Source: Acanthococcus lagerstroemiae
Taxonomy: Eukaryota; Arthropoda; Insecta; Hemiptera; Eriococcidae
Length of the DNA: 64,000 nucleotides
Direction of reading: 5' to 3'
Assembly (NCBI GenBank): GCA_031841125.1
Contig: CM063111.1
Span: 60,449,535-60,513,534 of the forward strand
Of this stretch, positions 2,150-25,288 are shown piece by piece. Each line of letters starts with the position of its first letter. Position 1 is the stretch's first letter. Below the pieces are notes generated by a model, which saw only the letters and a list, made by a program, of their open reading frames with translations, made no database searches and was not told the DNA's origin. The position numbers and the translations under genes are program-made.

Positions 2150-5100
2150 ATGTCGTCGTTGGTACCAGATGTGAAGATGGACTCCCAACAGGACTTCGGA
2201 TTCAGAGTCAATCCTGGAAGAATGGGTCAAGAAGAAGTTGTTATTTCTGGCTTATCTGGAAGACTACCAGAAAGTGACAACATCGAGGAATTCAAAAAGA
2301 ATTTGTACGATGGTGTCGATATGGTGACTGACGATGAGAGAAGATGGCCTGGCGGTAAGTTTGTTTTAAATTTCGTGCTTCGTAAACATAAAAGCAATTC
2401 CTACTCACAGTCAAGAATATCAGGGTGATTCTCTGAAAAGCATCATTTTTCATGTCACAGATCTGGTTTAACTGTGGAACTGACTAAATTATTATTTTAA
2501 TAATGTGTTAAAATGCACTCTCCTTTAACTTTTCATTCATATTAATTTGAAACCCTCCAACATCATCCCAAGTCCCCAAAATCTACAATGAAGTACAAGA
2601 TCTTCGCGTTTTTTCCATCGGTCTGGATGTCACACGGTTCATTTTTCATCGTGTCCTCCCAAAAAGAGCCGCGTGAATGTACTCATTAATTGTATTCACT
2701 GATTAGAATTGATAAGCAGAGTTCGAACAACAAATTCTGAGGTTTCATATTGATTCTGAGTGAGAACAAAATGTCTTTGTCGCATAACTTGTTTCCATCG
2801 GTCTTGCACTTTTTCTGTCTGCTTCCATGGCAGCACTGATGTTGCTTCGGATATTCACTGTGGGTCTGATGGCTTCATTCTGACAACATGAACACTATCT
2901 TCATGTGAAATTGTGAAACTCAAGTTGATGAAGTACATTCCACAGCACAAATCTATTAAAATCTTGAAATTCCCAGTTTTTGGGTTCCATTCCTCTGGGT
3001 TATCATATCTTATCAGAAATACCGGAATCATAACCTGAAACGAGGCAAATAATACTGATAAGAAAACCATTTCAACATGAAACATTCTAAATTGCTTAAA
3101 ATTTATTCATCGGCCGTTAATATTGAAATTTGGATAAAATTTCCATAGGTCTGGCTATTTCAAGTTTTCCATCGGTCTGGAAGACATAATATTTCCACAT
3201 GAAAACGATCGGTAAACTGCTCTACCTTCATTCTAATGCTCTAAATTGTACGTAATTTGTGTTCATATTACGTCATTATCCCTTAAATGGCACACATCGG
3301 CGAATGTTTTCACGCACATTATGCGTGTATGAACGGTTGTATACACACGAATGCGAGGGCGCTTAACTGGTTTATCCCTTGCAAGTTACAAATGCAACAG
3401 GATCTAACCTTAATTTTCATTGTACGATGTTTGGAAATTTTGGAGTGGGGGCCCCCCTTTGGAGTTCCACAGGGAGCTTACACCAAAACGAATTCATAAC
3501 TAATGTTGAAATATTTACCAAAATTCTTATTATTTGACAACTGAACAATCTAAGTTACAGCTATGAATCTATTTGTTATTATTATTACAGTAAGTATGAC
3601 TTACCTTTCAGTTCCTTCTCTAGATATAATGCCCATGAAAATGACTGCAATTTCAAACTGAAACTCGAGAGGTTGTTGTATGCACATAACCTTTATTTTT
3701 CATCAATATCAATTTAAGAAAGCGGAAAAATATACATACATTTCTTTTTTCTAGATACTTACTTGTGTTAAATGTAATTATTCATGTGCTTATCTCCAGG
3801 GTTGATTGGGCGAAGTCAATGGAATTGTACGATTACGACTAACTTTAAAGAATTCCATCGATCTGGCTGAGTTCTCAAGTACCAGACCGGTCTGGTCATT
3901 GAAAATTTAGAACGTGATGCCCCCTCCCCTTGGAGTATGAATTGGGTTGAACCGCATTTTCGGCCTCTGGGACACCTCAGCAACGGATTGCCCCCAAAAA
4001 ATCATGAAAAAACAACTTTCCAAAAATTATTTTTCACTACTTAAAAATTGACGCTTTTCGGAGAATCACCTACCAGAACAAAGTGATACGTGTCTTTTTG
4101 CGTAGCAATTCAATTCTCATCCCTCGGTCATATTTTGTTTCAGGAATTTTCGGTTTACCATTGCGAACTGGCAAATTGAAAAATCTTAAATATTTCGACG
4201 CCTTATTTTTTGGAGTGCACGCGATACAGGCAGACGTTATGGACCCTCAACTGAGACTAACATTAGAATGTACCTATGAAGCAATAATTGACGCCGGTGG
4301 GTTTTTATAAGAATCAAGTAACATTTCGTTATAGCGAGCCTTTACTAAGTTTGGAAAAGCTAATAAGTCTGTGAAAATCTGAAAAGTTCTTACATGAGCA
4401 TTGAAAATTGGGAAGACGATTTCTCCCTCTTTGAGGTGAAAAATTCGATGGTTTTGTTACAAACGTTCAAAATTTCCTAAAAACGGTGGTTCAGCCTCTA
4501 GAATCTACTGAGCACACGTGCAAAAGATTTTAATTTTTAACTCCAGTCATCCGAAATTGCAAGTACTTCTTTTGTCTTACCTACAAATTCAACTATTGCC
4601 GTGAGATCAAAAAATGGTCCAAGTTCTCACGAGAGGAGTAAGGCTCAAGACTGTTAATTCTTTCAAATTTTTAATTTCCCCTCTCGTGATTGCTACAATG
4701 TTTCTTTCAAGTCTTCCATGATATTTTCATTTTCGTACATTCAGGTGTGAATCCGGCCAACATAAGAGGATCCAACACAGGCGTATTCATTGGCTTGTCT
4801 ACGAGTGAATCTTTGGACATTTGGGATAGCGACCCTGCTCGTGTTAATGGATATGGGTTTCTTGGGGGCTGTAGAGCAATGCTTCCAAATCGAGTTTCCT
4901 ACACATTTGATTTTAAAGGTGAGATAATTTTTTTTTAAATCCTTGTTTAGCACATGTTCTCATAAAGGTACCCCAAACTGTCCATGAGGAAGAAAGATAC
5001 CATAAAGTCTACTTATATGCGGATAAGACTAAATGACATCTACTGGATACAGTGCCTTAGTGAGGCAAATTTCTTGTCACAGTATACTCATCCCTAGTGC

Positions 5101-25288: not shown

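Follow-up and report, generated by a model that had tools for sequence, protein, structure and literature searches.

How an animal fatty acid synthase (FAS) could discharge its product without the C-terminal thioesterase (TE) is the question raised by a large gene of the scale insect Acanthococcus lagerstroemiae. A C-terminal TE is stated for animal FAS in general in PMC10764717, and this feature of animal type I FAS is absent from the gene considered here (gene 1) by both Pfam and tblastn searches. The gene lies in a 64-kb stretch of a 658-Mb assembly (hereafter the window, C6:60449535-60513534, where C6 is CM063111.1). The COX1 sequence on contig C326 of the assembly is 73-76% identical to those of the neococcoids Aclerda, Ceroplastes, Didesmococcus and Coccus, in keeping with a scale insect close to the soft scales. 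It is natural to infer from its sequence that gene 1 would use a TE-independent route of release. The reading we favor, at somewhat better than even, is that gene 1 encodes a working FAS whose chain would be released without a TE of its own, either by a separate enzyme or by MAT-mediated transfer to CoA.

Rebuilding gene 1 from splice signals and reading frames gave 33 exons and a coding sequence of 6315 nt, encoding 2104 amino acids with no internal stop (Table 1), and a second rebuild by spliced alignment of the FAS of the mealybug Planococcus citri (P0002) arrived at the same exons. The P0002 alignment exits exon 33 at 25232 and yields junk matches thereafter. All introns are GT-AG but one, a GC-AG intron after exon 12, and exon 23 has an alternative donor 9 nt upstream that is also in frame. 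Residue 2051 is the ACP serine, leaving 53 residues to the end of the protein; the stop codon (25286-25288) falls inside the ACP exon at a point where the housekeeping copy on C5 continues reading, the ACP exon of the latter, by reading of the letters, running about 40 nt longer before a splice donor. AATAAA signals lie approximately 0.77 and 0.85 kb downstream of position 25288. Repeated stretches resembling transposase fragments, which we take to be of mariner type, occupy introns at 13400-14140 and 21700-22450, and a 121-aa frame at 13675 within this repeat has no Pfam match. A further intronic stretch at about 16170-16430 looks, by eye, like a tRNA-derived repeat; ARAGORN reports no tRNA anywhere in the 64-kb window, this repeat included.

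Table 1. Coordinates of gene 1, its predicted domains and the tandem copy, in window positions
Feature	Position	Strand	Remarks
Gene 1	2150-25288	+
Gene 1 exons 1-7	2150-2354, 4144-4296, 4745-4918, 5465-5665, 7953-8191, 9892-10122, 10627-10818	+
Gene 1 exons 8-13	10913-11038, 11146-11376, 11505-11694, 12141-12370, 12458-12595, 12675-12841	+	Exon 12458-12595 has a GC donor
Gene 1 exons 14-20	14463-14607, 14937-15053, 16477-16585, 16859-17110, 17236-17412, 17572-17726, 17820-17990	+
Gene 1 exons 21-27	18061-18363, 18465-18658, 19093-19341, 19427-19550, 20507-20683, 20781-20960, 21086-21284	+
Gene 1 exons 28-33	22819-23005, 23091-23236, 23973-24220, 24321-24566, 24660-24894, 25065-25288	+
KS	2231-10725	+	Residues 28-434; catalytic Cys187 codon 5491-5493
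MAT	11170-14505	+	Residues 516-840; Ser605, His707, Arg630 kept
MAT Ala577 (mammalian Phe553)	11353-11355	+	Codon
MAT Ala631 (mammalian Gly607)	11643-11645	+	Codon
DH	14506-17624	+	Residues 841-1110; His899 and Asp1050 kept
Pseudo-methyltransferase/pseudo-KR structural span	17625-19252	+	Residues 1111-1420
ER	19253-23169	+	Residues 1421-1765
KR	23170-24833	+	Residues 1766-2010
ACP and short tail	24834-25285	+	Phosphopantetheine Ser2051 codon 25124-25126
Tract near-identical to gene 2, introns included	17601-19100	+	Likely gene conversion
Gene 2, tandem TE-less FAS	56795-64000	+	Stop at about C6:60530553, outside the window
Gene 2 exons 1 and 2	56795-56997, 57103-57255	+
Gene 2 exon 3 remnant	57476-57508	+
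Gene 2 exons 4 and 5	60134-60334, 63247-63485	+

The predicted protein retains the KS-MAT-DH-pseudoKR-ER-KR-ACP order of animal type I FAS. Pfam matches to KS, MAT, pseudo-KR, ER, KR and ACP are all above their cut-offs, and the N-terminal DH model falls 1.9 bits short (25.1 bits against a cut-off of 27, compared with 30.7 to 41.3 in three other FAS scanned). The TE model PF00975 is missing from gene 1; among the three comparison FAS it is present in P0002 and absent in P0021, an aphid protein, and P0118, from the whitefly Bemisia tabaci. All 11 of the residues checked in KS, MAT, DH, KR and ACP, which we take to be the catalytic ones, are kept. In ER the one feature inspected, the nucleotide-binding motif, is kept as well; since the DH and KR catalytic residues are also retained, a fully reduced chain would be expected. 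The original prediction of a stop-free, 33-exon, 6315-nt gene ending about 53 residues past the ACP serine was thus recovered by both rebuilds, and its claim of intact KS, MAT, KR and ACP domains agrees with the Pfam scores and the catalytic residues. P0002 and the FAS on C5 (C5a, at C5:5.12-5.15 Mb) agree with gene 1 in domain order and catalytic residues, and C5a also in the 33-exon layout through ACP; unlike gene 1, both carry a TE, are about 300 residues longer, and retain residues at positions where gene 1 differs.

Gene 2, the tandem copy, is represented both on C6 and on contig C240, with 99.4% identity between the two across 24 kb, and the protein modeled from C240 is 90% identical to that of gene 1. 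Compared with C240, exon 1 on C6 shows two small indels and most of exon 3 is missing (57255-57508), the latter being either a haplotype difference or an assembly error; the C240 copy is open as far as ACP. In the tail of gene 2 a run of A differs by one base between C6 (about 60530540) and C240 (about 760), and consequently a stop follows ACP on C6 while the C240 frame continues as a 132-codon open frame. On C6 the two genes have short, similar tails and both stop after ACP. Identity between gene 1 and gene 2 rises to 97-100% over approximately 17.6-19.1 kb, introns included, compared with 78-92% upstream, and downstream it falls unevenly through 95, 89 and 97 to 79-85%. This tract probably reflects recent gene conversion of gene 1 with gene 2. 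Between the two FAS copies, at 33423-35339 of the window, lies a 638-aa open frame with a DDE_1 endonuclease domain, a transposase-type gene.

Several measures bear on whether these copies are maintained. In pairwise comparison gene 1 has a dN/dS ratio of 0.236 with gene 2 and of 0.13 with C5a; dS in the latter comparison is 1.24, near saturation. Polarizing the changes with C5a as reference gives 0.33 (0.27-0.40) for the gene 1 branch and 0.185 (0.146-0.235) for gene 2. By domain, gene 1 has values of 0.20 for KS, 0.28 for MAT, 0.38 for DH, 0.31 for ER and 0.36 for KR, and the 0.84 of its ACP rests on few changes. In the absence of constraint gene 1 should have accumulated roughly 24 stops, and it has none. 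A chance open frame is excluded by this deficit of stops together with 68% identity to the mealybug FAS and a dN/dS well below 1, and the predicted selection on the reading frame is borne out.

The strongest competitor, although unlikely, is that the C6 genes are decaying duplicates on which purifying selection held after duplication and has since weakened, leaving both on the way to becoming pseudogenes. The higher dN/dS of gene 1 relative to gene 2, the ratio for its ACP, and the damaged appearance of the C6 copy of gene 2 with its indels and deletion are all in keeping with decay, as is the number of conserved positions that have changed. The comparison covered 559 positions that are at least 98% conserved among 110 TE-bearing FAS. 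Of these, 50 are changed in gene 1, 31 in gene 2, 44 in the Bemisia TE-less protein, and 10 and 17 in two aphid proteins without a TE; five TE-bearing controls show 2-5 changes each, and four of the five belong to the defining 110. By uncorrected p values the changes are enriched in ACP in gene 1 (7/27, p 0.007), gene 2 (6/27, p 0.002) and Bemisia (11/27, p 1e-6), with 2/27 and 3/27 in the two aphid proteins (p 0.08 and 0.04). End gaps rather than substitutions make up some of these counts: a single one in gene 2, produced by our own cut, a single one in Bemisia, and two per aphid protein. DH is likewise enriched in gene 1 (12/55, p 0.002) and gene 2 (7/55, p 0.02; both uncorrected), and in the ACP of gene 1 the stretch past the active serine is altered. 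Against decay stand the absence of any stop or frameshift in gene 1, the retention of all 11 catalytic residues checked and dN/dS of 0.20-0.38 from KS to KR, the open C240 copy of gene 2, and the occurrence of similar TE-less copies in six aphid genera.

The descent of the pair was examined with 42 sequences, 38 from the best 120 homologue matches and four from this genome. In a whole-protein tree of 37 of these (four unnamed TE-bearing rows and Macrosiphum were dropped), gene 1 and gene 2 are sister to the TE-bearing C5 FAS of the same insect, within a scale-insect clade that also holds P. citri (support 100); since P. citri falls outside, the duplication postdates the split from the mealybug. 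A KS-only tree of all 42 rows gives the pair the same placement and puts the long-branched Bemisia TE-less protein at the base, in conflict with the whole-protein tree. On these trees gene 1 is a derived duplicate of a housekeeping FAS, followed by duplication in tandem.

Loss of the TE is not confined to this insect. By our reading, PF00975 is missing from ten of the best 120 homologues: seven from aphids, one from a whitefly, one from a beetle (Callosobruchus) and one partial entry from a wasp. One aphid entry, from Cinara (P0017), clusters with aphid FAS that carry a TE and probably reflects truncation of the model, which may also apply to the beetle and the wasp. Removal of these doubtful entries leaves six aphid clusters (P0021, P0022, P0024, P0027, P0050 and P0060), duplicates of housekeeping type that end soon after ACP, and the single Bemisia protein, which ends likewise; some of the aphid entries are labeled isoform X2, and for these a longer isoform is possible. 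In the whole-protein tree the aphid and whitefly proteins each group with their own relatives. The minimum number of changes in TE state on the 37-row tree is five, two of which are due to the doubtful Cinara and Callosobruchus entries. Joint grouping of scale insect with Bemisia, scale insect with aphids, and Bemisia with aphids was rejected in all three AU tests on 23 rows (p below 1e-45), which were run after the tree had been seen and on groups defined by lack of the TE. By this evidence the TE would have been lost separately in the scale insect, aphids and whitefly, giving at least three origins in sap-sucking insects. The aphid proteins also differ from the scale insect pair in sequence: their ACP proper is hardly changed and their KS motif reads CSG rather than CSS.

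The TE-bearing C5 gene, intact and the closest paralogue of gene 1, could itself provide the missing activity. Animal FAS is described as two identical monomers (PMC5039406), which makes a mixed dimer conceivable in which the TE-less protein would form one half and the C5 synthase would supply its TE in trans. We consider such pairing rather improbable given that the two proteins share only 73% identity and that the ACP of gene 1 is altered past its active serine.

Less probable still is that gene 1 is an animal FAS-like polyketide synthase (PKS) whose partly reduced product would leave by cyclization, as proposed for the TE-less mollusc enzymes. The loss of the TE and the changes in MAT and DH agree with such a role, and the related EcPKS1 and EcPKS2, for which structures are solved, likewise lack a TE and are described as releasing their product without one (PMC10764717). 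That source treats the mollusc enzymes as a lineage apart from FAS, whereas both trees place gene 1 beside the housekeeping FAS of its own genome, and gene 1 scores 2107 bits to human FAS versus 1599 to EcPKS1. The retained reductive apparatus argues for full rather than partial reduction, and arthropod animal FAS-like PKSs are said in PMC10764717 to have a TE. A KS outside the FAS clade, the mark of this class, is not what gene 1 has, on trees whose sole distant row is the paralogue at C8:11.65 Mb in place of the named enzymes of PMC10764717. The KS phylogeny proposed as a check on the original prediction therefore puts gene 1 among housekeeping insect FAS, and the kinship with FAS-like PKS that had been suggested is not upheld by descent.

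A search of the whole genome with PF00975 overlooks TE exons that have diverged, including that of the paralogue at C8:3.58 Mb, and for this reason its silence on C6 was not relied on and tblastn was used instead. The nine queries comprised seven hemipteran TE domains (E up to 0.1) and two diverged ones from C8 and C5b genes. Between them the hemipteran queries detect the TE of the C5a (C5:5.13), C8:11.65 and C5b (C5:15.49) genes, and a fourth, strongly diverged TE, that at C8:3.58 Mb, was detected by the tblastn approach, which demonstrates the reach of the method. From the window start to C6:60553500, about 104 kb, none of the nine queries finds a TE, as had been claimed for gene 1. The diverged C8 query has no match on C6 at all, and the C5b query matches just the two ACP exons because it contains part of an ACP. 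Downstream of the ACP exons, the searched span covers approximately 78 kb for gene 1 and 23 kb for gene 2; C240 has no TE match either, and since it ends about 0.8 kb past the gene 2 ACP exon it contributes little. The terminal-domain check covered paralogues other than those at C8:10.8, C5:18.0 and C5:5.05 Mb, and the C6 pair is not claimed to be the sole TE-less one. The original prediction had named, as the combination that would count against it, a KS among housekeeping FAS with the TE lost in this assembly alone; the first part is what we find, and the second does not hold, since gene 2 on C6 likewise has no TE in the approximately 23 kb past its ACP exon and its tail is similar. That a TE exon exists at a distance or was lost through misassembly is very improbable: the first TE match of the C5 gene lies about 7.7 kb past its ACP exon, so distant TE exons do occur in the family, and the C240 frame runs on past the position of the C6 stop, but both C6 copies stop within the ACP exon and the long downstream spans are free of matches.

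The MAT domain offers a clue to how release might be accomplished. At residues 577 and 631 gene 1 has Ala, as do gene 2 and all six TE-less proteins of aphids at the equivalent positions, while Phe and Gly are found there in 109 of the 110 TE-bearing FAS. Aligned to human FAS with an offset of 32, these residues correspond to mammalian Phe553 and Gly607, around Arg606. The offset was set from what we take to be the start of human FAS. It is consistent with MAT Ser581 as numbered in PMC6954729, where Phe553 is said to make the hydrogen bonds of Arg606 weaker and Arg606 to rotate its side chain so as to admit octanoyl. A literature search found no paper combining F553A with fatty acid synthase. 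Of 557 positions compared, 27 are changed in both scale insect copies and four in all six aphid proteins, and the overlap consists of these two, both to Ala (hypergeometric p 0.013, in a post hoc test). Not every TE-less protein has the MAT change, since that of Bemisia keeps Phe and Gly at these positions; the Bemisia protein shares with the scale insect ten of the 27 changed positions, three of them in ACP, versus two expected (p 7e-6), and four of the ten carry the same residue as gene 1. The paired Ala substitutions hint at a MAT that may move acyl chains from ACP to CoA.

Our favored reading of a working, TE-independent FAS can accordingly be framed as a series of steps. A duplicate of the housekeeping FAS would have lost its C-terminal TE, been kept by selection, and then been duplicated in tandem. 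In the enzyme of gene 1, chain building on ACP would follow the ordinary FAS course and yield a saturated acyl chain, which would then be removed by a thioesterase or acyltransferase encoded separately, or be shifted to CoA by the altered MAT. Release by another enzyme or by MAT implies a product that is probably not free palmitate; candidates are a medium chain, an acyl-CoA, or direct feeding into wax or glyceride synthesis. Other systems provide partial parallels. A 1982 paper by Ryan et al. on the pea aphid refers in its title to a specific acylthioesterase. In that aphid a thioesterase is described as ending the chain at C14 (PMC5383825, citing Ryan et al. 1982), and PMC11898469 describes both a separate thioesterase II in the rat and, in the ruminant mammary gland, thioesterase-independent release in which short chains leave on CoA. 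The rat and aphid cases resemble the proposed mechanism in that release is by something other than the usual C16 thioesterase, and the rat differs in that its FAS retains its own TE. It is conjecture that the aphid TE-less paralogue is part of the C14 system and that MAT performs the release in the scale insect. A broader view, which we hold to be doubtful, is that sap-feeding Sternorrhyncha repeatedly made a TE-free synthase out of a spare housekeeping FAS and that, in scale insects and aphids, a MAT with the same pair of changes passes the chain on to CoA, or else to another enzyme. Such a synthase may underlie the aphid C14 system of 1982 and supply wax or storage lipid.

A separate releasing enzyme might be encoded elsewhere in the genome. 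At C8:46700492-46703725 (L012) there are TE-like exons with PF00975 above its cut-off, and profile searches, which miss diverged exons, give no KS, AT, KR or ACP match nearby; this locus is a candidate for a discrete thioesterase. A second TE, at C9:32.35 Mb, appeared to stand alone with no KS match nearby and was set aside, since an AT lies about 13 kb away on the same strand and the two probably belong to one FAS-like gene.

Domain loss, including that of the TE, is already known in aberrant insect FAS-like genes: PMC5039406 counts 11 paralogues of FAS in the pea aphid, reports aberrant FAS from several orders, Hemiptera among them, and notes that the TE is truncated or lost in its cluster III. 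A search of titles and abstract openings turned up no TE-less housekeeping FAS in insects, although the figures of PMC5039406 may include the aphid copies, and within that search we found no precedent for TE loss in an otherwise complete FAS of housekeeping type that recurs in sap-sucking insects with common MAT changes. With, by this evidence, at least three origins, two of them with matching MAT changes, these proteins would constitute a natural experiment on the control of chain length and release. They also make it possible to ask which enzymes make the aphid C14 chain and whether scale insects supply wax synthesis from a dedicated FAS of their own.

Two further loci were noted in the course of the analysis. 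At C4:12.40-12.85 Mb about nine FAS-like loci lie in tandem, with KS, AT and TE, and no KR or ACP, among the matches listed. The array resembles a mollusc clade for which only KS-AT-TE is predicted (PMC10764717) and is a possible lead for scale-insect polyketides. Contig C11 (1.5 Mb) carries uninterrupted KS, ACP, KR, AT and COX1 frames and is probably a bacterial symbiont.
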